Source: Cyanothece sp. BG0011
Lineage (GTDB): Bacteria > Cyanobacteriota > Cyanobacteriia > Cyanobacteriales > Microcystaceae
Direction: 5' to 3'
Length of the DNA stretch: 64,000 nt
Assembly (NCBI RefSeq): GCF_003013815.1
Contig: NZ_PRLH01000004.1
Location: forward strand, 1-64,000
Made by a program: the position numbers and the translations under genes. Below, piece by piece: positions 12,186-64,000 of the stretch. Below the pieces are notes generated by a model. That model had not been told where the DNA came from and searched no databases. It worked only from the letters and a program-made list of their open reading frames with translations. The first letter of the stretch is position 1. Every line of letters begins with the position of its first letter.

Positions 12186-13704
12186 TAGGGGTTTGATAAT
12201 TAGCAATTTCTGGTAACGGGCGCAGAAATACCATTTGTTCGAGGGACATATCTACATGATAGTAGTTACCTCGATAAGCTCCTAATCTTTCTCCTAACTC
12301 CGCCGGACTTTCCACCCGACGGGCTATGACTGAATGCTTTAAATTAGGGGAATAATCGGCTAATTTTTCTAACACCCGGTCAGCCACTTGATTTTTAAGG
12401 GTATCGGTCCACCCTGTCCCATTTAACCCGGTATTTTCCGCTCCAGCAATTTGATAAGGGGCAAAAAATTCGATCCATAAGGTATGCTTTCCTTCCGGTG
12501 CCATAGACGGATCTAACTGAGTGGGCATTACCACATACATGGAAGGATCTTGATCGGGAATGCGACCCCTAGAGGCTTCATGGTGAGCGGTTTCTACCTG
12601 TTCAACAGAATCAGCAATTAAAATAGAGCCGATTAAATAATCATCTTGATGGTTATATTGTTCAAATTTTAGGGGTTCGGATAAAGCACAGTCAATTTTT
12701 AAGAGGCTTTCGTTATTGTTAATAATACGTTTATCGAGACGGTGACGTAGTTTGGGGTCTGCACTGTCAATGTCAGCCGGATCGACTAAATTTAAAAATA
12801 AACGTTTGGCATCAATATTAGAAATAACCCCATGTTTTGCCCGATATTCTTTACCATTAGCAATTCTCACACCCACTGCTTTACCATTGTCTACTAGAAC
12901 TTTTTCTACGGTTTGCTCAGTTAAAATCACCCCGTTATAATGGCGAACACATTTGACTAAAGCATCAACTAAAGCCCCTGTACCGCCTCTCGGACGCGCC
13001 ATGCCAGGGTTATGCCGTAAGCTCATCATCATCGCACCAATGGCCAGACTTTTTTGAGACGGGGCCATCCCTAATTCAGCAGAGAGACGAGCTAGAGGGG
13101 CTTTTAACCAAGGTTCGGTTAACCATTCATCGAGAAGATCCTCAGCACTGGTGAGCATGGTACGAACAAAGTCTAAGGCTTTATTAGGGCTTCCTACTAC
13201 TTTAAGCACATCTTTAAGGGCATTAATGTTATAACCACCAGCAATCTCAAGGATTGATTTTGGCGGTACATTGAAAATGGGAGTTAAAGCATTAATAATC
13301 TGTTGCCAATATTCGGTAAATTCTCGGTATCGTTGCGCTTCTTGAGGATTATATTGAGCAATATTAGCACAAGTTTGGTCAACGGAACGATGACCTAAAA
13401 AGTATTTTCCGTCAGGATGAGGACAAAAAACAACGGGATCACAGTATAGGTATTCTAACCCAAAACGATTCAGTTCTAATTCTTCGACGACAGGACTTAG
13501 ATGGATAAATTCATGATCGATCGCACAAAGATTGAACTTAAACCCTGGGGCTTCTTTTGGCATGGCTTCTTCGGTGGTAGCTGCCCCTCCGGGTACGGCT
13601 CGTTTTTCAAGTACCAGCACCTGATACCCTGCTTTGAGAAGATAAGATGCACAGACTAAGCCGTTATGACCTGCACCAATTATAATGACATCAAAAGTTT
13701 CCAT
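12157..13704 (-). CDS. crtO: Beta-carotene ketolase CrtO-type, truncated at its C-terminus
   Basis: An FAD-dependent desaturase-like enzyme that adds keto groups to beta-carotene (echinenone synthesis). The FAD-binding motif IIIGAGHNGLVCA lies at residues 8-20, followed by EKRAVPGGAATTE. CAIDHEF, ARPRGGTGAL, GVISNIDAKRLF and MVFLRPLPEIANYQTPIK follow the CrtO pattern. The family then continues with a TGAGTHPGG...GRN motif for about 30 more residues; here only ITYE follows. That lost motif belongs to the FAD domain, so the product is probably inactive if the truncation is genuine. Confidence 0.88.
   Translation of the reverse strand: METFDVIIIGAGHNGLVCASYLLKAGYQVLVLEKRAVPGGAATTEEAMPKEAPGFKFNLCAIDHEFIHLSPVVEELELNRFGLEYLYCDPVVFCPHPDGKYFLGHRSVDQTCANIAQYNPQEAQRYREFTEYWQQIINALTPIFNVPPKSILEIAGGYNINALKDVLKVVGSPNKALDFVRTMLTSAEDLLDEWLTEPWLKAPLARLSAELGMAPSQKSLAIGAMMMSLRHNPGMARPRGGTGALVDALVKCVRHYNGVILTEQTVEKVLVDNGKAVGVRIANGKEYRAKHGVISNIDAKRLFLNLVDPADIDSADPKLRHRLDKRIINNNESLLKIDCALSEPLKFEQYNHQDDYLIGSILIADSVEQVETAHHEASRGRIPDQDPSMYVVMPTQLDPSMAPEGKHTLWIEFFAPYQIAGAENTGLNGTGWTDTLKNQVADRVLEKLADYSPNLKHSVIARRVESPAELGERLGAYRGNYYHVDMSLEQMVFLRPLPEIANYQTPIKGLLITYE
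12168..12180. other. Junction of two truncated genes
   Basis: Family resemblance of the kinase ends after RTLL (base 12174) and that of crtO after KGLL (near base 12172). The two coding regions overlap by 29 bases, tail to tail. Both lose C-terminal parts at the same place, so this is a breakpoint: a deletion, an inversion end or an assembly join. Confidence 0.75.
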
Positions 13705-13748
13705 AAGTAGAGTTGTTTATTTAGTTTTTAATCTTAACAATTTTTTCC

Positions 13749-13800
13749 CTCTTGCCTCTTGGCTCTTGCCTTTTGCCTCTTGCCTTTTGCCTTTTGCCTT
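13749..13800. repeat. CTTGCC-TTTTGC short tandem repeat
   Basis: About seven imperfect copies of (C)TTGCCTTTT/TCTTGGC run up to the stop codon of the pyrFE gene. Such degenerate tandem repeats are common between cyanobacterial genes. Here the repeat touches the coding end. Confidence 0.75.
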
Positions 13801-15244
13801 AATGTTTAAAAAAGCTCTTATATTGTTGTTCATTAATTCTTCCGGCTTCATATAACGTTTCTGTAATTTCAGAAATAGTTAACACAGAATAAGCGTTGTA
13901 TCCTTCTATTTTCAGTTTATCTTTAACCCCTTGTTCATGATCGATAAATACCACAATATCGTTGACAACTAATCCAGAAGAGGTTAATTTTTCGGCTCCT
14001 TCTTTAACACTTTTTCCTGTGATTAAAATATCATCAACAATCACAACTTTTTCCCCTGCTTGAAAATTCCCTTCAATTAAACGACGGGTTCCGTGTGCTT
14101 TAACTTCTTTTCTCGGATAAATCATCGGATGATGTAACATTAAAGATAATCCTGTAGCGGTGGGTAAAGATCCATAAGGAATCCCTGCAATTCTATCAAA
14201 ATTTAAAGTCTTTAAAATATCAGCATAGGCCGTTAAAACTTGATGGAATAATTGAGGTTGAGAAATAATTTTTCTAAGATCAATATAATAAGAAAACGTT
14301 GCCCCAGAAGCTTGCACATATTCCCCAAATAATAAACAACCAATATCATAAAGTTGTAAAATTAAATCTTGGTGAGGATGGGAATTTAATAAACAGACAT
14401 TGGGACTCCACAGGTCACAGTTTTGTGAACTTTGAGTAATCTTTTGTCGATATTCATTAATTGCTTGGTTGAGATTTTTAACTTCTTCTTTCAAATTTTT
14501 AGATTTCAAAAAATCTTGAGGAACAGGAATTAATACCCCATCGCCTGTCGGATTTAAAGCCACTTTTAATATCTCATAAAGATCATTACCCTTACTCCAA
14601 ATACTACGCATTAATAGTAATCTTTCAGGGGCAAGAGAACGGATTTTTTGGATAACGTCTAAATTGGTAGTTCCGACTTCTAAAAATAACTGTTCTGGGG
14701 TTGCCCAAGTTCTCGCTTCTTTGATAACTTGTAAATAAAAGGGGGCTTGCTCCGTGGGATATTCTTGTAACATAACCGCCGAAGGATTAGAGGTATGACA
14801 GAGGACAAAAACACCGCGATCGGGATAAACTAAAAAAGGAGCAACATGATCTTGTCCTGCATAAGGACTGACTGTAACAGCATCCACTTGCCACTGTTCA
14901 AAAATGGTTTGGGCAAATAGGGTGCTAGTATTAAGATCCCCATGTTTTGCGTCTAAAATAATCGGAATCTCATCAGGAATAGCATCAATAACCTTTAACA
15001 ATAAGTCTAAGCCTTCTGGTCCCAACGCTTCATAAAAGCCCAAAGTCGGTTTATAAGCACAAACTAACTCTGATGTTTGTTCAATCACCCCTTTTAACCA
15101 AGTTTCTAAGCTAATAATTAAACTTTGTTGCTCTGATTGGGTATTCTGAGCTAGGGGCATCATTTCTGGGTTAGGATCAAGACCAAGGATCAATAACGTT
15201 TGACAATTAGTGATCCGTTGGGTTAATTTCTCAAAAAAATTCAT
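13799..15244 (-). CDS. pyrFE: Bifunctional orotidine-5'-phosphate decarboxylase / orotate phosphoribosyltransferase
   Basis: Catalyses the last two steps of UMP synthesis. The decarboxylase half (about 1-270) starts MNFFEKLTQRI and has ILGLDPNP and LDAKHGDLNTS with the catalytic Asp-Lys-Asp group. The transferase half (about 300-481) carries the PRPP loop VVIVDDILITGKS near 430. The order decarboxylase then transferase is the reverse of the animal UMP synthase. This fusion is known in cyanobacteria. 481 residues looks complete. The C-terminal stop overlaps a tandem repeat. Confidence 0.94.
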   Translation of the reverse strand: MNFFEKLTQRITNCQTLLILGLDPNPEMMPLAQNTQSEQQSLIISLETWLKGVIEQTSELVCAYKPTLGFYEALGPEGLDLLLKVIDAIPDEIPIILDAKHGDLNTSTLFAQTIFEQWQVDAVTVSPYAGQDHVAPFLVYPDRGVFVLCHTSNPSAVMLQEYPTEQAPFYLQVIKEARTWATPEQLFLEVGTTNLDVIQKIRSLAPERLLLMRSIWSKGNDLYEILKVALNPTGDGVLIPVPQDFLKSKNLKEEVKNLNQAINEYRQKITQSSQNCDLWSPNVCLLNSHPHQDLILQLYDIGCLLFGEYVQASGATFSYYIDLRKIISQPQLFHQVLTAYADILKTLNFDRIAGIPYGSLPTATGLSLMLHHPMIYPRKEVKAHGTRRLIEGNFQAGEKVVIVDDILITGKSVKEGAEKLTSSGLVVNDIVVFIDHEQGVKDKLKIEGYNAYSVLTISEITETLYEAGRINEQQYKSFFKH

Positions 15245-15347
15245 AAGAGGAAGTTAGCTCTAAAAAAAATGGCCAATTTTACCTTAATTGTACCTCTAAC
15301 TTATCATTGATCTAAGAAAATAACTCCTGATTGGAAGTATCGAACCT

Positions 15348-16354
15348 ATGGATTTAATAACGTTACAAAATTTTCTCGATAATAGTTCTTTTCTCATTTT
15401 ATTCTTAACCATGCTCATTTACTGGGCTGGGGCAGCTTTTCCGGGTTTAACCTGGTTACCCACCCTCGGCACAACCGGGGTGGCGATCGCTAATTTATGT
15501 ATGGGGACCTTGTTGGGGGCGCGATGGTTAGAAGCCGGTTATTTTCCTCTCAGTAATCTTTATGAGTCTTTATTCTTCTTAGCTTGGGGTGTAACCGCCA
15601 TGCACCTAGTGGCTGAACAAATGAGTCGCAGTGCCTTGGTTGGAGTGGTAACAACCCCCGTAGCGATGGGTATTACTGCTTTTGCAGCCCTGTCTCTACC
15701 CCCAGAAATGCAAACCTCTGCCCCTCTAGTGCCTGCGTTAAAGTCGAACTGGTTAATGATGCACGTGAGCGTGATGATGTTGAGTTACGCCACTTTAATG
15801 GTGGGTTCAGTATTAGCGATCGCTTTTCTAGTCGTCACTCGCAACCAAGACATTGAACTTAAAGGCAGTTCCGTGGGAACCGGTAGTTATCGCGATAAGT
15901 TAGGACGTTCATTACTCAACAATAATCATAAACAACCTACTGTTAATGTAGCCCAAAGTAACGGTAATGGTGGAACAGCCGTGTTAGAAACCGTTGCTAT
16001 TAAACCTGAAACCATGACCCTGTCTCCTCAACGGCTAAATTTAGCCGATACCCTCGATAATATTAGTTATCGTATCATTGGTTTAGGGTTTCCTCTGCTG
16101 ACCATTGGTATTATTGCCGGTGCGGTCTGGGCCAATGAAGCATGGGGTCTTATTGGAGTTGGGACCCTAAAGAAACCTGGGCGTTGATTACTTGGTTGGT
16201 ATTTGCAGCCTATCTTCATGCTCGCATTACCAAAGGGTGGCAAGGCCGTAAACCGGCACTTTTAGCTGCCAGTGGTTTTGTCGTAGTTTGGGTGTGTTAT
16301 TTAGGGGTTAATTTATTAGGAAAAGGCTTACATTCTTACGGCTGGTTTTTCTAA
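15348..16354 (+). pseudogene. ccsA: Cytochrome c biogenesis protein CcsA (ResC/CcsB family), one-base frameshift
   Basis: A haem-handling membrane protein of the system II cytochrome c assembly machine. The first frame (15348-16187) carries multiple transmembrane helices and ends correctly with AVWANEAWG, then runs into nonsense. The second frame (from 16142) continues with [12 protein letters not shown], the tryptophan-rich haem-binding motif, and the final helices to LHSYGWFF at 16354. Adding one G to the GGGG run at 16144-16147 restores a single protein of about 335 residues. The gene should be essential in an organism with cytochrome f, so a homopolymer sequencing error is more likely than true inactivation. 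Confidence 0.9.
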
Positions 16355-16362
16355 TATTGTCC

Positions 16363-16386
16363 GGTGGGCATTGCCCACCTTTTTTA
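16363..16386 (+). terminator. Terminator of ccsA
   Basis: GGTGGGCA/TGCCCACC forms a tight hairpin followed directly by a run of Ts, eight bases past the ccsA stop. Confidence 0.85.
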
Positions 16387-16542
16387 TTGTTACCATTTTG
16401 CACAAGAGTTAGACATTGAACAGGTGAGAAATATACAACAAAAGAAAGTTTTTAAACCCTTCTCATACCAAATCCCGCTTTCAACCCTATCTTATTTTCT
16501 ATAAAAACCATTGTTTTATATTACTGTTCCCCATTTTCTAAT

Positions 16543-16881
16543 TTAATTCAACCAAAAAATCCGCCTTTGTGTCGGTTGTAAACGGGGACTTTGTTCTTGC
16601 ATCACTTTATCAATTTGATGGGGATCAAAATTATGACGAAAATCATTTCTTAACTGAGAAACTCGTTTTTCTGTTTCTTCAACTTCGACTTTAATTTCTT
16701 TTAACTGCGCTTGTTGAGACCATTGATAGGGAATTAATTTGAACAAGCTAAATAGTGCCACGGCTGATAAAATGCCGTTAATAGCTAATTTAATGGTAAT
16801 TTCTGTGGCTACCCATTGATGTTCTGGATGAGTGGTAGAAACGGTTTTACGAGAAGAACGACGCTGTCTAGACATGGACAT
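16543..16881 (-). CDS. Small conserved cyanobacterial membrane protein with coiled coil
   Basis: 112 residues: a basic serine-rich N-terminus (RQRRSSRKT), one transmembrane helix near 33-50 (AINGILSAVALFSLFKLI), then a heptad-like charged helix (LKEIKVEVEETEKRVSQLRNDF), ending QPTQRRIFWLN. The layout recalls FtsB/DivIC-type bitopic proteins, but I see no diagnostic motif. I believe homologues occur widely in cyanobacteria next to psaM or on their own. Function unknown. Confidence 0.7.
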   Translation of the reverse strand: MSMSRQRRSSRKTVSTTHPEHQWVATEITIKLAINGILSAVALFSLFKLIPYQWSQQAQLKEIKVEVEETEKRVSQLRNDFRHNFDPHQIDKVMQEQSPRLQPTQRRIFWLN

Positions 16882-16987
16882 AGTTAAACAGATAACTCAT
16901 CTACAATAGACCATTCACCCCAAACAAAAACATTAAATTATTGTTTCTGTCGGGATGAATCGGTATCTGTTTTATTAAACGAAACAG

Positions 16988-17080
16988 TTACTTATAAAGT
17001 TCCGTGGCTAAGCGAAAAGCAAGAATCCCAGGAACTAAAGCAATAACTAAAGCAACTAACACTTGGGTATCAGATAACAT
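16988..17080 (-). CDS. psaM: Photosystem I reaction centre subunit XII
   Basis: A 30-residue single-helix subunit of photosystem I. It starts MLSDTQV and ends FRLATELYK, which is the PsaM pattern, with a hydrophobic helix between. AGGAGA lies 13 bases upstream of the ATG. It is too short for most gene callers. It stands alone between a small membrane-protein gene and the universal stress gene, both on the same strand. Confidence 0.93.
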   Translation of the reverse strand: MLSDTQVLVALVIALVPGILAFRLATELYK

Positions 17081-17193
17081 GGACAGTAATCTCCTAGAAT
17101 ATGACTGATTTAACCATTACTTTGCATCATCATTGACCGTTTGTGAAACATCTTGTTACAAAGATTTAACTTTCTTGGATCTCCCACACCTCC

Positions 17194-17250
17194 CACACCC
17201 CCCTGCCCCCCTTTGAAAGGGGGGAGTTAGAGGGGGGTCGGGGCAGGGGG
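17194..17250. repeat. C/G-rich dispersed repeat, copy 2
   Basis: A run of C-rich sequence, CCCCCCTTTGAAAGGGGGG, then AGTTAGAGGGGGG and CAGGGGG. It shares the GGGGAGTTAGAGGGGG core with copies at 4461 and 33172. It lies just past the stop of the universal stress gene. Confidence 0.7.
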
Positions 17251-17255
17251 ATGTA

Positions 17256-18110
17256 TTAAATGCCTTCTTTACGGGCCAAGAGGATGGGACAATTCGCATT
17301 AACCCTGACATAATCAGATAAAGAGGTTCCTAAGAGGCGATCTAAGTCTGGTAATGCTTTGGCCACAGAAGGACGGCGATCAGGTGATCCTAACAACAAT
17401 AAGTCGATGTTGTAGTCTTCTGCCAACTGACACAGTTGTTCCCCTGGACGACCCCCTGTTACCGCGCAACGATAGGGAACTCCCATACGCTTCACTTTAG
17501 TGGCTGCTTCTGCCACGATGGGGTTATTCTCCATCTCTGCTTTGGAAAGGGGCAGCAGTTCCGGTTTAATGTCAGGGTTCACCCGTGCGAGAATTAACTC
17601 AGCTTCTGAATAGTCCCGTAGTAAATACAAGGCTAAATCTAAGGCATATTGGGCGGCAGGAGACTTATCAAGGGCAACCATGACCCGTTTAATCTTTTTG
17701 ACGTAAACATCATCCTTAACCAACAACATGGGGTGGTTGGTAAGTTGGAAGACGTATTGACTGACGGATTTTTCTAAAATGGCTTCGAGGCGTTTGAGTC
17801 CCCTTGACCCCATAATGATTAAATCTGCGTTGATCTCATCAGCTACCTGACAGACTGTGTCTTTGGGGTCTCCTTGCCGTAACATGGTTGAGACATGGGT
17901 GGGATCAAGTTTGAGGTTATCGAGGATACCTGCAATTAATTTGCCTCCTTCTTCCCATTTGGTCGCGATCTCATCGGTGGTAATTTGGGGAGGAACGACA
18001 TGGAGGATGTTGAGGGATGCTTTTTTAATGGCAGGAAGATCCATCAAAACTTTAAGCATTTCTTGGGTGGTTCCGGTTCCTGAGTCAGCGTATAAGATTT
18101 TTTCCAGCAT
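17256..18110 (-). CDS. Universal stress protein, tandem UspA domains
   Basis: 284 residues with two Usp domains. The first (about 1-133) has IIMGSRGLKRLEAILEKSVS, the GxxG...S nucleotide-binding pattern. The second (about 140-284) starts RVMVALDKSPAAQYALDLA and has LLLLGSPDRRP, with a late GTSLSDYVRVNANCPILLAR. ATP binding is therefore likely, at least in domain one. It is a soluble protein of unknown specific role, monocistronic, with a C-rich repeat at its 3' end. Confidence 0.92.
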   Translation of the reverse strand: MLEKILYADSGTGTTQEMLKVLMDLPAIKKASLNILHVVPPQITTDEIATKWEEGGKLIAGILDNLKLDPTHVSTMLRQGDPKDTVCQVADEINADLIIMGSRGLKRLEAILEKSVSQYVFQLTNHPMLLVKDDVYVKKIKRVMVALDKSPAAQYALDLALYLLRDYSEAELILARVNPDIKPELLPLSKAEMENNPIVAEAATKVKRMGVPYRCAVTGGRPGEQLCQLAEDYNIDLLLLGSPDRRPSVAKALPDLDRLLGTSLSDYVRVNANCPILLARKEGI

Positions 18111-54384: not shown

Positions 54385-56163
54385 TTAAATCTTTCCTAAC
54401 CAACCCTTTAAATTTTCTTGTTGTCGGGGTGATGGGTTATCAATTTGAACCACTTCATATCGACTCGGTTGAGGCTTTCCTAAGGTAACGGAAAAGGTTT
54501 TTAATTCGTCTTGATGAAATACGGTGACTGAGACAATTTCATCAGCTTGATGATCTTTGAGACGTTGATTTAAGTCATCGGCGGTTACGCGAATACCATT
54601 AATGGCTAATAATTCATCTTCGGGGTCAATTCCTTCCACAAAAGCGGGTGATCCTTTTTCAACAAATTTAATGATTTGCTTGTTATTTTCTGATTGAACT
54701 TTAATCCCTAAGTGGGGAACACTATCGTCGTCCATAATGGCTTTCAGTTGGAGACCGAAGGGGTTTAAATACTTATTAAAGGGTAATTCTTCTGTGCTAT
54801 CAACGTATAGGTTAAAAAAGCTTTGTAAGTCCATATCCGCGACCGATTCGATCACTCGTTGAAGTTGATGGGGGGTAAACCCAGTTTCGGATTTTCCGAA
54901 TTGTTCCCACATCTGAACCATAACGTTATCTAAAGAGCGTTTATTTTCATGTTTAGCTCGAATCAATAAGTCTAACAGCAGGGAAACTAATTCACCTTTT
55001 AAATAATAGGAAATTTGACAGTTATCACTATTATTATCTCGTCGATAGAGTTTAATCCAAGCGTCAAAACTAGACTCACTGAGGGGTTGAACTTTACGGC
55101 CTGGAATGCTTAAAAAGCGAGTTATTTCTTTACCTAAAATTTCTAAGAACTTTTGAGCATTATAAATTCCGGCTCTCATGGGAATTACCATATCATAATA
55201 ACTGGTGGTTCCTTCAGAAAACCATAAGGAAGGGGTATAATTTTCTTGTTCGTAATCAAAGGTTTCTAATGCTTTTGGACGAATGCGTTTTATATTCCAT
55301 AAATGAAAGAATTCATGGGCAACTAATTGTAGAAAACGGTTATATTTATCTGTATCTCTAAAATAAAAACGAGAATAGATTAATGAACAGGAATTTTTGT
55401 GTTCTAATCCTCCAAAATTATTTTGGGTTAGATGAAGGATAAATAAATAATCGTCGTAGGGTAATCCGTTGAATAATTTAGCTTCTGTTTCTATAATTTT
55501 TTTGGTGTCTTCTATCACTTTCTTCGGTTGAATATTACCGGTTCCCCAAATGGCATATTGATGGGGTTTTCCTAATACTTCAAAAGAATAAATGCCATGG
55601 TTACCAATTTCAAAAGGACTATCTACCAAGGTGTCGAAATCTTTGGCATAAAATTGGTTGACTTTTTCAGGAATTGCTGGTAAAGCTGTGCTAACTTTCC
55701 AAGTTGAATTGGGGGGAATAATTTCGACGGTGATGGGGGTCGCTTCTAACCCTGGAATATAATAAAATAAAGCAGCCCCATTAAAATAACCATGAGTATC
55801 GTCTAAATGGTTCGTTCTGACGGTTAATTCATTGGCATAAACGCGATAGGTAATTAAAAGATTGTCCACTTCTTTGGTTTCTACTTGCCAATGATTTTTA
55901 CTCACTTTTTGACTGAGTAGCTTGGTTTGCTTATCTTTAGAAATGGCTTTAAAATCTTGAATATGTCTAGCATATTCTCTCACTAAATAAGACCCCGGTG
56001 TCCACACTGGCATTTTTAAATCAAGGATAGGATTTGACCAGTATTCAATCTGTAAACCCACCTCAAATAAATGGGAATTAGGATGGGGCATTTTCACAAA
56101 ATAAGTTAAACTGGGTGCAGGATAATTGAGTTTTTTACTCTCAGTAATCGTTGATTTAGTCAT
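54385..56163 (-). CDS. M61 family metallopeptidase with PDZ domain
   Basis: 592 residues. A beta-rich N-domain (about 1-190) is followed by the catalytic zinc site HEFFHLWNIKRIRP near 281, with WFSEGTTSYYD as the third-ligand segment. A C-terminal PDZ-like domain (about 480-570) has GSPAFVEGIDPEDELLAINGIRV. This is the glycyl aminopeptidase-like M61 group. No signal peptide is seen, so it may be cytoplasmic. Its start is two bases past the Crp-like gene stop, so the two form one transcript. Confidence 0.92.
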   Translation of the reverse strand: MTKSTITESKKLNYPAPSLTYFVKMPHPNSHLFEVGLQIEYWSNPILDLKMPVWTPGSYLVREYARHIQDFKAISKDKQTKLLSQKVSKNHWQVETKEVDNLLITYRVYANELTVRTNHLDDTHGYFNGAALFYYIPGLEATPITVEIIPPNSTWKVSTALPAIPEKVNQFYAKDFDTLVDSPFEIGNHGIYSFEVLGKPHQYAIWGTGNIQPKKVIEDTKKIIETEAKLFNGLPYDDYLFILHLTQNNFGGLEHKNSCSLIYSRFYFRDTDKYNRFLQLVAHEFFHLWNIKRIRPKALETFDYEQENYTPSLWFSEGTTSYYDMVIPMRAGIYNAQKFLEILGKEITRFLSIPGRKVQPLSESSFDAWIKLYRRDNNSDNCQISYYLKGELVSLLLDLLIRAKHENKRSLDNVMVQMWEQFGKSETGFTPHQLQRVIESVADMDLQSFFNLYVDSTEELPFNKYLNPFGLQLKAIMDDDSVPHLGIKVQSENNKQIIKFVEKGSPAFVEGIDPEDELLAINGIRVTADDLNQRLKDHQADEIVSVTVFHQDELKTFSVTLGKPQPSRYEVVQIDNPSPRQQENLKGWLGKI

Positions 56164-56165
56164 TA

Positions 56166-56849
56166 TTAAATTTGTTTAGCAAAATGATTTAACTGTTTAA
56201 GATTCGTTAATAATAAAATCTGGCGAGAATGATCACTTTCTAGACAACCTTGATGTTGTAATTGAGTCATAATCTGTTGACAGTCATCGAGAGAAATATC
56301 AGCAATGTCTGCCAAATCTTGAGCAGGAATTTGTAAAATTTCTGCCCCTTCCTCACTCAATTTACCATAAGCTTCTGCCAATTTAATTAAAGTTTTAATG
56401 AGTTTAATTTTCGGGGTTTGTTGATGTAATTGAAAACGACGATACAGATGACGAAATCGCTTAACACTGAGTTGCAACATTTTATGATGAACTTGGGGGT
56501 CTTTAAACAGCATTTGTAAAAAACGTTGGGCTGAAATACTGAGTAATTGAACATCAGAAAGGGCAATCACGTCTATACCCTTAAGAGATTCGTCCAAAAC
56601 CTCCATTTCTCCGAAGAAATCTCCTTTACCCAGAATTTCTAACACTGTTTCTTGATGGTTATAACGGGAACGAATTTTAACCCAACCCGACACGATAAAG
56701 TAAACCGCCTTTCCCCAGTCATTTTCTTTTATAATTTCTTCATACTGACCATAATTTTCTTCATCGACCACAGACAGTATCCATTCTAAGGTTTCGGGAT
56801 TCGCTACACTAAACAGGGGGAATAGCTCGACAATTGCTTGAGTTTCCAT
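56166..56849 (-). CDS. Crp/Fnr-like cyclic-nucleotide-binding regulator
   Basis: 227 residues. The N-terminal cNMP-binding barrel (about 5-125) has VSGWVKIRSRY and GKGDFFGEMEVLDESLKGIDVIA. The canonical cAMP-binding Arg-Ser/Thr pair is not obvious in this segment, so the ligand is uncertain. The C-terminal part (from about 150) has a helix-turn-helix-like ILQIPAQDLADIADISLDDCQQIMTQLQHQGCLE. It directly precedes the M61 peptidase gene and may regulate itself and that gene. Confidence 0.85.
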   Translation of the reverse strand: METQAIVELFPLFSVANPETLEWILSVVDEENYGQYEEIIKENDWGKAVYFIVSGWVKIRSRYNHQETVLEILGKGDFFGEMEVLDESLKGIDVIALSDVQLLSISAQRFLQMLFKDPQVHHKMLQLSVKRFRHLYRRFQLHQQTPKIKLIKTLIKLAEAYGKLSEEGAEILQIPAQDLADIADISLDDCQQIMTQLQHQGCLESDHSRQILLLTNLKQLNHFAKQI

Positions 56850-57054
56850 TAAAGGGGTTTTCGGACGGCATTAAATAAGGGGTTAAGGAATATCAATGGA
56901 TTGACTTTTCCTTATGGTTCAACCATTTCTTTTAATGATAAACCCCACAGACACTATAAGTCTAGGTTAGCGCATCGTTAACTGTTGTAAATTGTCTAAA
57001 CCTAAACAATTGTTATATTATCGTGAAGATCACAAGCACAGCTAGAAAATTTTC

Positions 57055-58044
57055 ATGGGTAGAAAGTATCACGTTTACGGTGTCGGTAATGCTTTAGTTG
57101 ATATGGAGTTTCAAGTCACTCCAGAATTATTACAAGAATTAAACATTGATAAAGGGGTAATGACGTTGGTGGATGAAGTCCGTCAAGGAGACATTATTGC
57201 CAAATTTAATGGTAATCTTTGTAAACAAAGTGGTGGGGGTTCTGCTGCTAATACCATGGTTGCTTTAAGTCAATTTGGGGCGAAGGGTTTTTACTCTTGT
57301 AAAGTGGCTAAAGATGAAGCGGGATTTTTCTATTTAGAAGACTTACAAAACTGTGGTTTAGATACCAATGTTCATGATGAAAAAGAAGTCGGAGGAAGCA
57401 CCGGAAAATGCTTAGTAATGGTCACTCCTGATGCTGATCGCACCATGAACACTTTCTTAGGAATTAGTGGCAGTTTATCAGAAGCGGAATTAGTTCCAGA
57501 GGCAATTGCTGATTCTGAATACCTTTACATGGAAGGTTATTTAGTTCCCTCTCCAACTGGTAAAGCTGCAGCGATCAAAGCTAGGGAAATTGCTGAAAAT
57601 TCGGGGGTCAAAATTACATTTTCTCTCTCTGATCCCAATATGGTGGACTTCTTTAAAGAGGGATTATTAGAAATCATTGGCTCGAATACAGATTTTATTT
57701 TTGCTAATGAATCAGAAGCCCTAAAAATGGCAGATACGGAAGATTTCTCTGAGGCGATCGCCTATTTCAAAAAGTTGTCTAAGGGGTTTGCCATTACTAG
57801 AGGTTCAGCCGGATCAGTGGTGTTCGATGGTCAAGAATTGATAGAAATTACCCCTTATCCAGTTCAAGCGATTGATACTGTGGGCGCAGGAGATATGTAT
57901 GCTGGAGCTTTTTTATATGGATTAACCCACGGCATGAGTTATGCTCAAGCTGGTGATTTGGCTTCTCGTGCTTCTTCTCAGATTGTTACTTGTTATGGTC
58001 CCCGTTTAGCAACAGAAAAGTTAAAAGAATTGCTAAATACTTAA
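57055..58044 (+). CDS. PfkB family carbohydrate/nucleoside kinase, adenosine kinase-like
   Basis: 329 residues. [12 protein letters not shown] near the start, [17 protein letters not shown] (substrate site) near 59-75, and [22 protein letters not shown] near 270 (anion hole and catalytic Asp) are PfkB features. The NxxE motif reads NESEA. The overall sequence resembles the cyanobacterial sugar kinases annotated as adenosine kinase. The phosphate acceptor is not proven. Confidence 0.9.
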
Positions 58045-58085
58045 AGGGTCACTCATAACTAACCTAAAACTATCTATTATTTTTG

Positions 58086-58103
58086 CCGAGGCTATGGCCT
58101 CGG
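58086..58103 (+). terminator. Hairpin downstream of the PfkB kinase gene
   Basis: CCGAGGC/GGCCTCGG stem with a 3-base loop, then TTCCTTAAAATTT. The T-run is weak, so termination is only possible. Confidence 0.5.
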
Positions 58104-58182
58104 TTCCTTAAAATTTAGGATAATTTCTGTTACAATAGTACAATATAACTAAAACAAAATTGGGAAGAAAGAGGCATTGATT

Positions 58183-58986
58183 ATGTTAAGCCAATTCCGA
58201 AAACATTATCCTGAAGGAAGTTTAGTGAGCGAGTTAGTCACTATCGATCATGGTCAATATATTGTCAGGGTATTATTACAAAATAAGGGGATAACCTTAG
58301 GGACAGGATTAGCCGCAGATCATAACATTGAAACAGCCGAAGATCGAGCCAGAGAAAGAGCATTAAAAAGTCTTGAACTCGATGATAAAGCCCCTGAAAG
58401 ATCAGAAAAAATCACTTCTCAACCATCCCCTGTGCCTCAAGAAACCCCTCAACCCAAACCCAAAGTTGAAGTGACATCACCTCCCCCAGAAAAACCCATT
58501 GAACCGGTTGCTAAAGTGGCTAAGACAGAAGAACCGAAAGAGATAGAAACAGAAACGCCCCCCTCCCCTAAAACAACCCCTGAAACCTCAACTAACTCCT
58601 CTAAAAAACAAGCTAAGACCCCATCAAACAATAAAAAAACATCACCCATTGAACCAGAAATTGAAGAAAAACCGTTACCTATTCCTGTCACTCCTCCATC
58701 AACCAAAACAGAAGAAATAGAAACAGAAGATAGTCAAGAAGCTACCGTTGAACCCCTTGAAGAACCCCAAATTGATGAAAATCCCCCGATGGTAGAAGAA
58801 GAGGAACTTGATTTTTCCGAAATTATTGCCCGTTCCAATGCAGAATTAAAACGATTAAAATGGACAACCGAACAAGGTCGAGAATATTTAATCAAAACCT
58901 ATGGAAAGCGATCGCGTCAAGTGTTATCAGATGAGGAATTATTAGAATTTCTTCGTTATTTAGAAAGCTTACCCACCCCTTCTTAG
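58183..58986 (+). CDS. Conserved protein with two short ordered ends and a Pro/Glu/Thr-rich linker
   Basis: 267 residues from the ATG at 58183; a TTG two codons earlier is less likely. The first 65 residues (LVSELVTIDHGQYIVRVLLQN...GTGLAADHNIETAEDRARERAL) have a double-stranded-RNA-binding-like alpha/beta pattern. A long low-complexity PKP/TEE linker (about 70-210) follows. The C-terminus RLKWTTEQGREYLIKTYGKRSRQVLSDEELLEFL is a conserved helical segment seen at the ends of other cyanobacterial proteins. Function unknown. The GH116 gene starts 57 bases downstream. Confidence 0.75.
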   Translation: MLSQFRKHYPEGSLVSELVTIDHGQYIVRVLLQNKGITLGTGLAADHNIETAEDRARERALKSLELDDKAPERSEKITSQPSPVPQETPQPKPKVEVTSPPPEKPIEPVAKVAKTEEPKEIETETPPSPKTTPETSTNSSKKQAKTPSNNKKTSPIEPEIEEKPLPIPVTPPSTKTEEIETEDSQEATVEPLEEPQIDENPPMVEEEELDFSEIIARSNAELKRLKWTTEQGREYLIKTYGKRSRQVLSDEELLEFLRYLESLPTPS

Positions 58987-59043
58987 ATCGGGTTTATTTT
59001 TATTACTGTTCCGAATGACCTTCCTGTTCTAAAATATGATCCC

Positions 59044-61458
59044 ATGAAGACTTTATTTTCCCTCCCAAACATCCCTTCTTGCGCTTGGAAACGTCCTATC
59101 GGTCAAGGATGGAATAATCCCTATACAGTACGCTATGCGAGTAACTTAGATGACGGTCCCTGGCACGGAATGCCTCTCGGTGGGTTCGGGTCCGGTTGTA
59201 TTGGGCGATCGCCTCGGGGTGATTTTAACCTTTGGCATTTGGATGGGGGGGAACACATTTTTAAAAGTATCCCATCTTGTCAATTTAGTATTTTTGAACA
59301 GTTAGAAGATGGCACAGCACAAGCTTATGCTTTGTCTACGGAAGCCCCAGAAGATAATACCCTATCTCGATGGGCTTGGTATCCCCAAGAAAAAGGAACC
59401 TATTCGGCCCTTTATCCCTGTAGTTGGTATCAGTATGAAGGGGTATTTCAAGCAGAGATTTATTGTGAGCAATTTTCTCCTATTATTCCTAATAACTATC
59501 AAGAAACCAGTTATCCTATTGGGGTCTTTGAATGGACCATAAAAAACCCCACTGATAAACCCATTACCCTCAGTATTATGCTGACTTGGCAAAATATTGT
59601 CGGTTGGTTTACCAATGCCATTAAATCCCCTGAAATTACGGTTAGAGACGACGGTAGTCCAGAGTATGAATATCAACCGAGATGGGGTCATAGTACCGGC
59701 AATTTTAATCAGTGGATACAAGATAATTTTCGGGTGGGTTTTATTCTCAATAGATTACAACCCCATGAACAAGTGCAAGAGGGAGAAGGACAAATCTGTA
59801 TCGCCAGTGTGACTAATCCCAGTGTCGAGGTTTTTTATCTGGGAAAATGGAATCCGAATGGGGATGGTTCTGAGGTTTGGGACTATTTTGCCATGAATGG
59901 TTCATTGCCAGATCAAGAAGATGAAACCCCGGCCGAACCTGGCGAACAAATTGCAGCCGCTATGGCGATCCGATTCACGATTAAACCAGGAAGAGTTAAA
60001 AAAATTCCCTTCATTTTAGCCTGGGATTTACCCATCACAGAATTTGCCCAAGGGATTCAATATTATCGTCGCTATACTGACTTTTTTGGTCGCAATGGTC
60101 AAAATGGTTGGGCAATGGTAAGAACGGCTTTAAAACATTCTGATGTGTGGCGAGATAGAGTAGAAGAATGGCACAATTCTATCTTAAAACAGAAGGATTT
60201 TCCCGACTGGTTTAAGATGGCTTTGTTTAATGAATTGTACTTATTAACCGACGGGGGAACCCTTTGGACAGCAGCCTCTGAGACTGATCCCATCGGACAA
60301 TTTGGGGTCTTAGAATCGATGGATTATCGTTGGTATGAAAGCTTAGACGTAAGATTATATGGATCATTCGGGTTATTGATGTTATGGCCGCGCTTAGAAA
60401 AAGCAGTTATAGAAGCCTTTGCACGGGCAATTCCTAGTAGTGATGATACCATTAGGATTATTGGTTATAATCAGGCCGAAGGGTTACGAAAAGTCAAGGG
60501 AGCAACCCCCCATGATTTAGGTGCGCCCAATGAACATCCTTGGGAAAAAACTAATTATACCAGCTATCAAGATTGTAATCTTTGGAAGGATTTAGGTAGC
60601 GATTTTGTCCTACAACTGTATCGAGATTTTCTGTTAACTGGTGCAGAGGATATTGACTTTCTTTGGGAATGTTGGGAAGCCGTTCCAGAAACATTAAACT
60701 ATCTTAAAGCATTTGATTTAGATAATGATGGTATTCCCGAAAATTCTGGCGCACCGGATCAGACATTTGATGACTGGGAATTGAGGGGAATGAGTGCTTA
60801 TTGTGGGGCGTTATGGATCGCTGCTTTAGAAGCTGCTATAAAAATCGGAGAAATCTTATTAGAAAATCCTCCTAATAATCCACAATTATCACCTGAAAAT
60901 TATCCCGAATCCATTGAAAAAGAACTGGATAAATATCACAATTGGTTACAACAATCTCGCTCAGTTTATCACAGCACTTTATGGAATGGAGAATATTATA
61001 AATTAGATAGTGAAAGTGATTCCGATGTGGTGATGGCAGATCAATTATCGGGTCAATTTTATGCCCGTTTATTAGGGTTGCCTAATGTCGTTGAACATGA
61101 ATATGCTCTATCAGCTTTAAAGAAAGTTTATGAAGCTTGTTTCTTAAAGTTTCAAAACGGAAAATATGGGGCCGCCAATGGCATGAAACCAGATGGAACC
61201 CCAGAAGATCCTAACTCAACCCATCCCCAAGAAGTATGGACGGGAATTAATTTCGGTTTAGCCTCTTTCCTAATACAAATGGGGATGAAAGATGAAGCTT
61301 TAAAATTAACTGAAGCCGTGGTTAAACAAGTGTATGAAAATGGCTTACAGTTTCGCACGCCTGAAGCAATAACAGCAGTGGGAACCTTCCGTGCGGGTCA
61401 TTATTTGAGGGCTATGGCGATTTGGGGGATTTATTATCAATTAAGTGAAACGAAGTAA
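59044..61458 (+). CDS. GH116 family glycosidase (non-lysosomal glucosylceramidase-like)
   Basis: 804 residues, no signal peptide. The N-domain starts with MPLGGFGSGCIGRSPRGDFNLWHLDGG, typical of GBA2-like proteins. The (alpha/alpha)6 catalytic domain has FKMALFNELYLLTDGGTLW near 390-408 (nucleophile Glu397) and DNDGIPENSGAPDQTFDDW near 560-578 (acid/base Asp). The family includes beta-glucosidases and beta-xylosidases as well as glucosylceramidases. The natural substrate in a cyanobacterium is not shown. Confidence 0.92.
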   Translation: MKTLFSLPNIPSCAWKRPIGQGWNNPYTVRYASNLDDGPWHGMPLGGFGSGCIGRSPRGDFNLWHLDGGEHIFKSIPSCQFSIFEQLEDGTAQAYALSTEAPEDNTLSRWAWYPQEKGTYSALYPCSWYQYEGVFQAEIYCEQFSPIIPNNYQETSYPIGVFEWTIKNPTDKPITLSIMLTWQNIVGWFTNAIKSPEITVRDDGSPEYEYQPRWGHSTGNFNQWIQDNFRVGFILNRLQPHEQVQEGEGQICIASVTNPSVEVFYLGKWNPNGDGSEVWDYFAMNGSLPDQEDETPAEPGEQIAAAMAIRFTIKPGRVKKIPFILAWDLPITEFAQGIQYYRRYTDFFGRNGQNGWAMVRTALKHSDVWRDRVEEWHNSILKQKDFPDWFKMALFNELYLLTDGGTLWTAASETDPIGQFGVLESMDYRWYESLDVRLYGSFGLLMLWPRLEKAVIEAFARAIPSSDDTIRIIGYNQAEGLRKVKGATPHDLGAPNEHPWEKTNYTSYQDCNLWKDLGSDFVLQLYRDFLLTGAEDIDFLWECWEAVPETLNYLKAFDLDNDGIPENSGAPDQTFDDWELRGMSAYCGALWIAALEAAIKIGEILLENPPNNPQLSPENYPESIEKELDKYHNWLQQSRSVYHSTLWNGEYYKLDSESDSDVVMADQLSGQFYARLLGLPNVVEHEYALSALKKVYEACFLKFQNGKYGAANGMKPDGTPEDPNSTHPQEVWTGINFGLASFLIQMGMKDEALKLTEAVVKQVYENGLQFRTPEAITAVGTFRAGHYLRAMAIWGIYYQLSETK

Positions 61459-61749
61459 TTATTCATTATTAATTGATGAAAGTTGCTCTGCTTTGATATC
61501 CTGAATCGCTCTCGTTAATCCATCTAAATAACTACCCAGGTTATCAATGTCATTTTTCATTGATTGAATCGTGGGATGATTGGCGATCGCATTATTTAAA
61601 CTGTCTGGGTTACTATCAGCGAGATAAACATCAATTAACTCGTTAATTACGTCATCGATAGTTTTTCCCTCATCCTTGACTTTGTTTTTCAATCTTTCTA
61701 ACTTGTCAGGATTAATGATTATATTTAGTTGGGTTTCTGTGGTGGTCAT
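61459..61749 (-). CDS. Ribbon-helix-helix-like protein, possible orphan antitoxin
   Basis: 96 residues. The first half, TQLNIIINPDKLERLKNKVKDEGKTIDDVINELID, has the strand-helix-helix pattern of the RHH (CopG-like) DNA-binding fold. The second half is a charged helix (NDIDNLGSYLDGLTRAIQDI). No toxin gene lies beside it on the same strand; the nearest is the oppositely oriented HigB-like gene. Its stop is one base from that of GH116. Confidence 0.65.
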   Translation of the reverse strand: MTTTETQLNIIINPDKLERLKNKVKDEGKTIDDVINELIDVYLADSNPDSLNNAIANHPTIQSMKNDIDNLGSYLDGLTRAIQDIKAEQLSSINNE

Positions 61750-61891
61750 AATTTTAAAAGATTTTAATTAAAGATTATAATCTGAACTTTAGATCAGTAA
61801 TCAAAACAAAAGTGTTGGGGGGATGTTGTGCAGTTGACAGTAGAATTAAGATATACTAAATTAGGTATAATCTGATAGTTTGACTAATATA

Positions 61892-62227
61892 ATGCCAGAT
61901 AAACCAATCTACTGGATTGGCTCTTCTAAGGATGATATTTGTGATTTTCCTGAAGATGTAAGGAAAAAAGCAGGTTTTCAGCTTCGTGCTATTCAAAGGG
62001 GAGAGAAACCGAATGATTTTAAGCCTATGCCAACCATTGGTAAGGGAGTCGAAGAAATTCGGATTTGGACAGGGGAGACTTATCGTGTTTTTTATGTGGC
62101 TAGATTTTTGGAGGCGGTTTATGTTCTCCATGCTTTTAGTAAGAAATCACAAAAAACATCTCGGCAGGATATTAATTTAGGTAAGCAACGTTATCAGCAA
62201 ATGATGAAATTTAGGGAAAATTTATAG
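61892..62227 (+). CDS. HigB/RelE-type toxin (Gp49-like)
   Basis: 111 residues from the ATG at 61892 (MPDKPIYWIGSSKDD); a TTG four codons upstream is in frame. GFQLRAIQRGEKPNDFKPMPTIGKGVEEIRIW and YRVFYVARFLEAVYVLHAFSKKSQKTS match the phage Gp49-like/HigB RNase toxins. Members cleave mRNA in the ribosome. The antitoxin gene starts eight bases past the stop. Confidence 0.9.
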   Translation: MPDKPIYWIGSSKDDICDFPEDVRKKAGFQLRAIQRGEKPNDFKPMPTIGKGVEEIRIWTGETYRVFYVARFLEAVYVLHAFSKKSQKTSRQDINLGKQRYQQMMKFRENL

Positions 62228-62235
62228 GGGTTAAT

Positions 62236-62565
62236 ATGACTATTTCTCAATCTTCTCAAAGCATTAATGTTACTCTAGCTCAGGATAATATTTTTGCAGA
62301 TTTAGGTTTTTCTGAGGATGAGGCGGTTAATCTGAAAATTCGGGCTGATTTGATGTTAACGTTACGTTCTTTTATTAAGGCTAAGGGTTGGACGCAAAAA
62401 GATGCAGCCAGTTTTTTTGATGAGACTCAACCGAGAATTAGTTGTTTGATGAATGGGGATATTAAGCGTTTTAGTGTGGATAAGTTATTACTGATGTTGA
62501 GTAAGGCAGGTATGGAGGTTAAATTTGAGGTTGTTTCTAATTCAATGGAGGATGTTGAGATTTAA
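62236..62565 (+). CDS. HigA-type antitoxin with XRE helix-turn-helix
   Basis: 109 residues. An N-terminal flexible part precedes a helix-turn-helix WTQKDAASFFDETQPRISCLMNGDIKRFSVDKLL (about 52-85) of the HTH_37/XRE type that partners Gp49-like toxins. Toxin-first order is the usual HigBA order. The antitoxin should neutralise the toxin and repress the operon. The tRNA-Phe fragment follows 100 bases later. Confidence 0.92.
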   Translation: MTISQSSQSINVTLAQDNIFADLGFSEDEAVNLKIRADLMLTLRSFIKAKGWTQKDAASFFDETQPRISCLMNGDIKRFSVDKLLLMLSKAGMEVKFEVVSNSMEDVEI

Positions 62566-62663
62566 CTAAAAATACCCACAAATTTAAAGACCCAAGGAAA
62601 TAAACTCCTCCCTTGAGTCCTTGAAACCCTTACGAATCGTGGGTTATACTGATGATAATTAAA

Positions 62664-62712
62664 TGCCAGGAGGCGGACTTGAACCGCCGACACGAGGATT
62701 TTCAGACCTCTG
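62664..62712 (-). pseudogene. 3' fragment of tRNA-Phe (anticodon GAA), likely attachment site
   Basis: On the minus strand the sequence from CAGAGG through the anticodon loop CTGAAAA, TCCTC, GTGTC, the T arm GGCGG-TTCAAGT-CCGCC and TCCTGGCA matches the 3' two-thirds of a bacterial tRNA-Phe. The acceptor 5' strand and D arm are absent; upstream of CAGAGG the sequence (TAGCTATAATAA) is unrelated. Such a fragment is what tRNA-targeting integrases leave at the far end of an integrated element. Confidence 0.85.
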
Positions 62713-62889
62713 TTATTATAGCTAGAAGCTAACTATACAGTCAACTTCACACACTTTTTAACAAGTTAGCCTAATATTGAGCCTAAAAAGAGAAGCTTTT
62801 AAGATGATTTTACTTATAAAAATATGTTAACTTCTGTGTGTTTCTTCTTATGTGAGAGCTATTTTGAAGTAGTAGCGCATGGGTTTAAC
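62713..62889. other. Element-side flank of the attachment site
   Basis: AT-rich and non-coding. GCTAACT (62728) and AGTTAGC (62764) form an inverted repeat, and GTCAACTTC (62740) recurs as GTTAACTTC (62826). These could be integrase-arm or promoter sequences. No integrase gene is within the window. Confidence 0.4.
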
Positions 62890-63288
62890 ATGGTTCTTGA
62901 CTTAACAGATATTTACGGAAGTAGCGCAGAATTTAGTGCAGCAGATCCGACCGATCCTTTGATTATAATTCACTTAAAAGATTTTCAGAACTCAGACAAT
63001 AACGGTGATATAACAGACGGAACCGGGTTTGATGATGTTTCTACTATTACATCAGAAAACATCAATTCAAAAGCAGCTCAATCCTTTGCCGGTCAACTTA
63101 AATTAATACGACAAAATCAACCAAGTTCAAACACAGACGAGACAAATGGAATTTATATTACAAACGATCCTAACGCCAGTAAGAACTTTGTCTTAAGAAA
63201 TGGAGTTAGGCAGATTTCTTATCCTTTTAACGTTGCTGTTTATGCGCCCGATCCCACTTCCTTTATAGATATTGACAACGTTCTGTAG
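62890..63288 (+). CDS. Hypothetical protein, probably element-encoded (phage-like)
   Basis: 132 residues from the ATG at 62890 (MVLDLTDIYGSSAEF); an in-frame ATG at 62824 would add 22 residues of cysteine/phenylalanine-rich sequence that looks unlike the rest. The protein is acidic, rich in Asp, Asn, Ser and Thr, and beta-rich, with no signal peptide. The composition and the tight spacing with the next genes suggest a virion structural (tail or baseplate) protein. I recognise no family. Confidence 0.6.
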   Translation: MVLDLTDIYGSSAEFSAADPTDPLIIIHLKDFQNSDNNGDITDGTGFDDVSTITSENINSKAAQSFAGQLKLIRQNQPSSNTDETNGIYITNDPNASKNFVLRNGVRQISYPFNVAVYAPDPTSFIDIDNVL

Positions 63289-63290
63289 TA

Positions 63291-63857
63291 ATGACTTTAG
63301 ATTTAACCTATGATGCTTTGTTTACTTCATTTGCGATAGAAAACGATAAGATCATACTTGCAAAAGCTGATTTGCTAAGAATGGTTTTAGGAATTCCGTT
63401 AACCGTTACCGATTGGTTGATTGTAATTCATGAATGCTTAAGACGGACTTTTTTGTCCTACTTAATTGTCGATGAAAACGACATTTTGTTAAAAGACAAC
63501 CAATATTTTGTTGTTAGTGATTATTCACAAGTTTATGCTCACATAGATTGTATCACATTAGGAAAAAGAGCAACTTTTGACTCTATTGTTTTGGGTTATC
63601 AATGGAAATTTACGACAATATTTGAGTCAACTACAAATAAAAGTTTATCATTAGTAGAAATTAACGACAATAATGTTTTGATCAACTTAGATGCTTTAAA
63701 TTTTCCTAGCAATCCTGTTGATTTTTGTCAAGCTTTTGTCAACTATTTAGCTGTAAACGAAGCTGAAAACATTAAAGTCGACACCAATTATTTGGTTGAG
63801 TTCTTTTTTTCTAATAATTTACCATTATTAAGATTAGAGGATATTATTGATGGCTGA
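63291..63857 (+). CDS. Hypothetical protein, probably element-encoded (phage-like)
   Basis: 188 residues, starting two bases after the previous stop. Alpha/beta content; no membrane segment, signal peptide or motif that I can name. It has LLRMVLGIPLTVTDWLIVIHECLRRTF near 27-53. Its 3' end overlaps the next start by eight bases (ATGGCTGA), a phage-like packing. Confidence 0.6.
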   Translation: MTLDLTYDALFTSFAIENDKIILAKADLLRMVLGIPLTVTDWLIVIHECLRRTFLSYLIVDENDILLKDNQYFVVSDYSQVYAHIDCITLGKRATFDSIVLGYQWKFTTIFESTTNKSLSLVEINDNNVLINLDALNFPSNPVDFCQAFVNYLAVNEAENIKVDTNYLVEFFFSNNLPLLRLEDIIDG

Positions 63858-64000
63858 TCGATTTCTGTCTAATATTTCGCAAATTCAAGACTTAGAAGAC
63901 AACGATAGTTTTCTTATTGCTAAAGGAGATCAACTTTTAAGGTTTTCTTGGTTAGATTTTTTAAATTATTTGTCAAATATTGAATTTAATCAGAGAAGTT
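63850..64000 (+). CDS. Start of a probable phage tail-fibre-like protein, cut by the window end
   Basis: 50 residues are visible: MADRFLSNISQIQDLEDNDSF... then LLRFSWLDFLNYL. A start like this (short helix, I-x-x-L-x-D-x-D-x-F/L-x-I-A/V, then a K-x-x-W-x-D-L/F segment) is typical of phage tail-fibre and receptor-binding proteins. The rest lies beyond the window, so this is tentative. Confidence 0.55.
   Translation, partial: MADRFLSNISQIQDLEDNDSFLIAKGDQLLRFSWLDFLNYLSNIEFNQRS

Follow-up and report, generated by a model that had tools for sequence, protein, structure and literature searches.

Temperate phages and genomic islands that insert into the 3' halves of tRNA genes are the closest described counterparts of the locus studied here. 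They have in common with it a displaced 3' stub, empty sites in related strains and, in its relatives, an integrase next to the intact tRNA; the mechanism of insertion is identical and it is the gene content that differs. Within the cyanobacteria, the tycheposons of Prochlorococcus are likewise tRNA-targeting and move by a tyrosine recombinase, and in their description these tRNA-associated elements appear as large cargo carriers of 4–200 kb with metabolic genes (PMC10872708). The present locus comes from Cyanothece sp. BG0011, and the window analysed comprises bases 1–64000 of contig C121 (NZ_PRLH01000004.1), which is 72379 bases long. Near its right edge, we recognise with a probability of roughly 0.88 an element of the tyrosine-integrase type that has inserted into tRNA-Phe and belongs to a rare cyanobacterial family, most likely temperate and virus-like. 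Support for the insertion is good, and the mechanism is ordinary and already known. Its interest is that a textbook insertion exposes a rare and hardly described family of cyanobacterial integrative elements.

Alignment to the intact tRNA-Phe genes of the genus gave 98% identity over the 50 bp of the stub (E 6e-17; Table 1). The match is exact over 43 bp (62663–62705, minus strand), from the anticodon loop CTGAAAA to the tRNA-Phe 3' end, and is followed by a single mismatch at 62706 (tRNA position 31, the last pair of the anticodon stem) and by six further matching bases (62707–62712), at which point the similarity to tRNA-Phe ends. The initial annotation had described a 49-base 3' part of tRNA-Phe with one anticodon-stem mismatch, which is correct to within one base. 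The 5' half of the tRNA is missing beside the stub, and ARAGORN detected no tRNA at this position. The 34 bases past the stub bear a weak likeness to a tRNA 5' half, equalled by 1.7% of shuffles, and the alignment lacks collinearity. A tRNA-Phe pseudogene, decayed or partly duplicated, with ordinary chromosomal genes instead of an element to its right, would account for the weak tRNA-like covariance score over the junction (25.9 bits with Rfam, below the 29-bit cut-off) and for the six bases that still match past the mismatch. This is extremely unlikely, however, as all 43 bp of the 3' part are conserved and similarity then ends abruptly, exact identity starts at the same point as in a proven tRNA-Phe integration in another genome (G061, see below), and the neighbouring genes on the right are those of an element family flanked by tRNA repeats elsewhere.

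An intact tRNA-Phe is present in all of the other genomes of the genus (8/8). In four of them (G003, G005, G006 and G008) the left flank of about 100 bases adjoins the intact gene, with 86–93% identity over flank and tRNA part, and the match to all four breaks off at the same base. Since they keep this flank beside an intact tRNA-Phe, they represent empty sites, and the comparison with strains lacking the insert, which had been suggested at the outset, bore out the reading of the 3' fragment as displaced. Chromosomal-type genes had also been reported to the left of the stub, and these are syntenic with the closest relative (G001) over 54385–61727 of the window at 88–93% identity, after which that genome continues with an intact tRNA-Phe and thiC. 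In several genomes of the genus the DNA on the left-flank side of tRNA-Phe differs, and the site is therefore a variable one. Two chromosomal contexts of tRNA-Phe are known in the genus, next to thiC or next to a potassium-channel gene; G002 has a tRNA-Phe gene in each, on its contigs C109 and C10, and other genomes show just one of the two contexts. Just left of the stub, 61880–62565 encodes a Gp49-type (PF05973) protein and, after it, an HTH_37 protein, likely a HigBA-like toxin-antitoxin pair. The match to G001 stops at 61727, before this pair, and the match to G006 begins after it, at 62566, so the pair may be an earlier insertion at the variable site.

Table 1. Features around the junction of chromosome and element, in coordinates of the contig.
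Feature	Position	Strand	Basis or remark
Native chromosomal DNA, left flank of the empty site	62566..62662		Four relatives have it just downstream of their intact tRNA-Phe
Displaced 3' part of tRNA-Phe	62663..62712	-	Alignment to intact tRNA-Phe genes of the genus
Integrated element, left end	62713..64000, on to contig end at 72379	+	Composition, gene content
First element gene (154 aa; start may be at 62890)	62824..63288	+	F9-related
Second element gene, 188 aa	63291..63857	+	Without database match
Third element gene, start (320 aa in the contig)	63847..64000	+	Without database match

To the right of the stub lies a foreign gene cluster. The 9667 bases from the junction to the contig end have a G+C content of 32.4%, compared with 38.8% in window positions 1–62662, and none of the equal-length stretches sampled in the latter was below 36.0%. 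The packed array of genes on the same strand that had been noted here is indeed seen, and continues to the contig end with nearly all genes on the plus strand. In order, the ORFs encode proteins of 154, 188, 320, 381, 582, 81, 257, 282, 126, 133, 213 and 148 aa, followed by a homologue of family F0 (the most conserved of the protein families described below) and a C39-type peptidase truncated at the contig end. The F0 gene is out of frame at a poly-T run (L008, 11577–11590; contig 71577–71590), which may be a sequencing error or a real disruption. With the exception of the C39-type peptidase, no assembled element gene had a convincing Pfam or PHROG match. The product of the third gene looks discoidin-like by eye, and its hhalign comparison with family F18 was not significant. 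Matches of the window to Lactobacillus phage DNA were weak and were set aside.

The contig stops at 72379, 9.7 kb inside the element, and its far end is therefore not visible. No tyrosine integrase was found in the assembled 9.7 kb, and searches of the assembly by DNA, by pattern and by the tRNA 5' half found no intact tRNA-Phe, the stub alone being recovered; the Rfam tRNA list is not exhaustive, since 150 of 408 candidates were scored and tRNA-Lys is also absent from it. The lack of an intact tRNA-Phe, together with an assembly of 5.6 Mb (estimated 99.96% complete) that is divided into 227 contigs, and with a 43-bp repeat able to mislead short-read assemblers, could suggest that the left flank and an arm of the element were wrongly joined through the 43 bp of tRNA sequence, the element residing elsewhere or partly as a free circle. 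The thiC and potassium-channel neighbours, which were also considered as the right flank, are both assembled in this genome with neither tRNA-Phe nor element DNA at the expected place, which counts against the insertion. On the other hand, the structure of the junction is exactly that of a displaced-stub end, and a misassembly is very unlikely. Even a free circle needs an attachment site matching tRNA-Phe, so that the family would still target this gene. Integrases on three other contigs of the genome (C105, C86 and C209) were examined as the missing end and none is close to the integrases of the relatives. The short contig C209 (1755–3063, L100) also encodes an HNH nuclease with 46% identity to the one adjoining the integrase of a viral contig from IMG/VR (L080); it may be part of the stretch of this element that was not assembled, or of a different element. 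The genome may harbour a second related element on contig C158 (~11634–17600, L102), where a primase-like match and an integrase with 32% identity to the one in the G061 element come after a tRNA-Gly.

Complete homologous elements, with both ends, are seen in other cyanobacteria. G098 and G099 each have a tyrosine integrase after an intact tRNA-Asp, and the 3' part of this tRNA recurs as an exact 46-bp copy on the same strand, 27.7 and 27.1 kb away, respectively. In G345 an intact tRNA-Ala adjoins the integrase, and a 23-base 3' copy is found 14.4 kb off, with the match continuing past the tRNA end; the 14.4-kb element between them contains the conserved gene module, a VapE-type helicase, a repressor-like gene and a phage lysozyme. 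The near-complete genome G061 (C1:2438390–2479053) has an intact tRNA-Phe at 2438390 and, 21.2 and 40.6 kb further on (2459637 and 2479011), two exact 43-base copies of its 3' part, with exact identity starting at CTGAAAA as in the window. There are two elements here in tandem behind one tRNA-Phe, the second, of 19.4 kb, carrying the module; their integrases are 75% identical and their module genes strongly diverged. The integrase is located at the tRNA-proximal end in the relatives. The nearest relative of the Cyanothece element is a remnant in G016, at about 60% protein identity (F2, 57.5%; F0, 61%), next to which are an intact tRNA-Phe and the broken start of an integrase, oriented as would be expected of the missing right end. 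The integrase and intact tRNA-Phe forecast for the far end are thus supported by homology, since relatives have an integrase beside an intact tRNA (tRNA-Phe in G061), and neither is present in the contig as assembled to 72379; in this copy they would lie at the unassembled end. In Aphanothece hegewaldii the first module gene (F40) occurs a second time, beside a tRNA-Arg at another locus (L079, 8960–10083), which suggests that this tRNA is a target too.

These arrangements are best explained by insertion through a tyrosine integrase at tRNA-Phe. The attachment site of the element itself would carry a copy of the tRNA-Phe 3' part, so that strand exchange in or beside the anticodon loop would leave the original 3' part as the stub and, on the integrase side at the far end, make tRNA-Phe whole again. 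Anticodon-stem arms are commonly the core sites of integrases, and for this reason the mismatch and the six matching bases beyond it are best read as the element's side of the exchange.

That the element extends rightward from the stub, as the initial annotation proposed, is shown by its composition, by the complete homologous elements bounded by a tRNA and its 3' repeat, and by gene content that recurs sparsely: F0 is carried by 8/386 genomes sampled across the cyanobacterial phylum, its 13 loci in named cyanobacterial genomes being joined by one on the viral contig L080, and relatives of the 282-aa protein occur in 5/97 other genomes of the same family and order. Aphanothece hegewaldii CCALA 016 and Kamptonema sp. 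UHCC 0994 are among the strains that carry relatives. The conserved module consists of families F0 to F9, recurs in other cyanobacteria and on L080, and combines small conserved proteins with a long coiled-coil or collagen-like fibre. By blastp clustering, the gene order F7-F4-F8-F5-F3-F1-F2-F6...F0 is common to this genome, L078 and L080, with parts of it in others, and it is preceded by F9 or a relative of F9. The small-protein family F9 sits at the same module end in relatives as the first gene of the present element, which matched it with an hhalign probability of 79.5 (E 1.5e-5). F3 appears to be a fusion of two domains, one F1-like and one F2-like; in profile comparison its N-terminal half aligned with F1 (hhalign probability 93) and its C-terminal half with F2 (78). 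A CRISPR-like array with repeats of ~37 bases lies just past the integrase of L080 (13040–13950) and may be host flank or element cargo.

Few links lead from these proteins to described ones. No close relatives of the F3 protein were found in viral contigs, genome contigs, phages or plasmids, and its AlphaFold model, which is of low confidence (mean pLDDT 51), gave no significant fold match, nor did its sequence match the PDB. The F0 model is good (mean pLDDT 82.7); its single significant match is an unnamed viral protein (A0A510E892; 33% identity, E 3e-7), and it has none in the PDB. A non-exhaustive search of the literature returned no description of this element family. The family is rare, cyanobacterial and new, lying outside the protein and phage libraries and the papers searched, which are not exhaustive.

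It is probable, though less certain than the insertion, that the gene cluster builds or decorates a particle and that these elements are viruses or satellites rather than any other kind of cargo. Members of the family carry lysozymes, peptidases and other cell-wall enzymes, repressor-type HTH proteins, primase-helicases and integrases. The F7 protein of L080 has a 190-aa domain that is 62% identical to the receptor-type domain of gp102 of Microcystis phage Ma-LMM01, and the L080 fibre matches tail-fibre PHROGs, which is weak evidence because the matches run partly through low-complexity collagen repeats. Judged from gene content, the lysis, repressor, replication and integrase genes, with the fibre and gp102 domain matches, point to what would be a temperate virus-like element. 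That it is a provirus is plausible, at slightly less than even odds. Searches of the assembled part of this element and of the main ORFs of its relatives against Pfam and PHROGs gave no capsid, portal or tape-measure protein, and no terminase was recognised in any member among the ORFs searched, which included part of the small ones; an FtsK-type protein of L070 gave a weak terminase PHROG match among stronger FtsK matches. The provirus reading is weakened by this lack of recognised capsid, portal, terminase and tape-measure genes. A provirus whose particle is made of small proteins of the F1/F2/F3 type, unrelated to known capsid, portal and packaging proteins, and which inserts into many tRNA genes, is doubtful.

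A phage satellite, which would integrate, replicate by VapE or Prim-Pol, supply genes for adsorption and lysis and be packaged by a helper phage, is a possible but tentative alternative. The complete 14.4-kb element of G345 is in keeping with it, with an integrase, a repressor, VapE and a lysozyme, and with no terminase, portal, capsid or packaging ATPase recognised among its searched ORFs; in size and replication genes it resembles P4-like and PICI-like satellites. Satellites nevertheless do not usually have a long fibre and a set of small conserved proteins dedicated to them, the small ORFs were searched in part, and other members do carry ATPases of the FtsK/HerA type (L070 and L073), a type not recognised in the searched ORFs of the G345 element or in the assembled part here. 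A third view is that of a non-viral integrative element, either conjugative or a cargo island, in which the product of the cluster would be a structure for the cell surface or for contact. The FtsK/SpoIIIE protein of L070 and the Prim-Pol and ATPase of G098 speak for it, since the FtsK and Prim-Pol of some members recall actinomycete integrative conjugative elements, and the G098 ATPase has relatives on cyanobacterial plasmids and none in the phage collection. This view is unlikely, however, as the complete G345 member has no recognised ATPase or relaxase, and a lysozyme, a repressor and a receptor domain shared with a phage fit viruses better.

The relatives with both ends supply exact boundaries, target tRNAs (Asp, Ala and Phe) and a testable gene list. 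Should the module build a particle, an ecologically important phylum would harbour a type of virus or satellite whose structural proteins have gone unrecognised; otherwise the module would be a new kind of adhesion-and-lysis cargo.

Set beside described systems, the family resembles several of them in part. Microcystis phage Ma-LMM01 has the C-terminal part of gp102 in common with the F7 protein of L080, but it is a 162-kb tailed phage that shares that domain only, and the F7 protein of the present genome has no match to gp102. The tailless double-jelly-roll proviruses (Varidnaviria) also have small integrated genomes, and the FtsK/HerA-type ATPase of some members recalls them, whereas the low-confidence model of the candidate protein F3 is not jelly-roll-like in look. 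P4-like and PICI-type satellites are similar in size, integrase, repressor, a VapE or Prim-Pol gene and the lack of a recognised terminase or capsid, and differ in that the family described here has its own fibre, several small conserved proteins and lysis enzymes, and no known helper. From the tycheposons, as they are described (PMC10872708), the elements for which both ends have been seen are set apart by their size of 14–28 kb and by their virion-like module and lysis genes.
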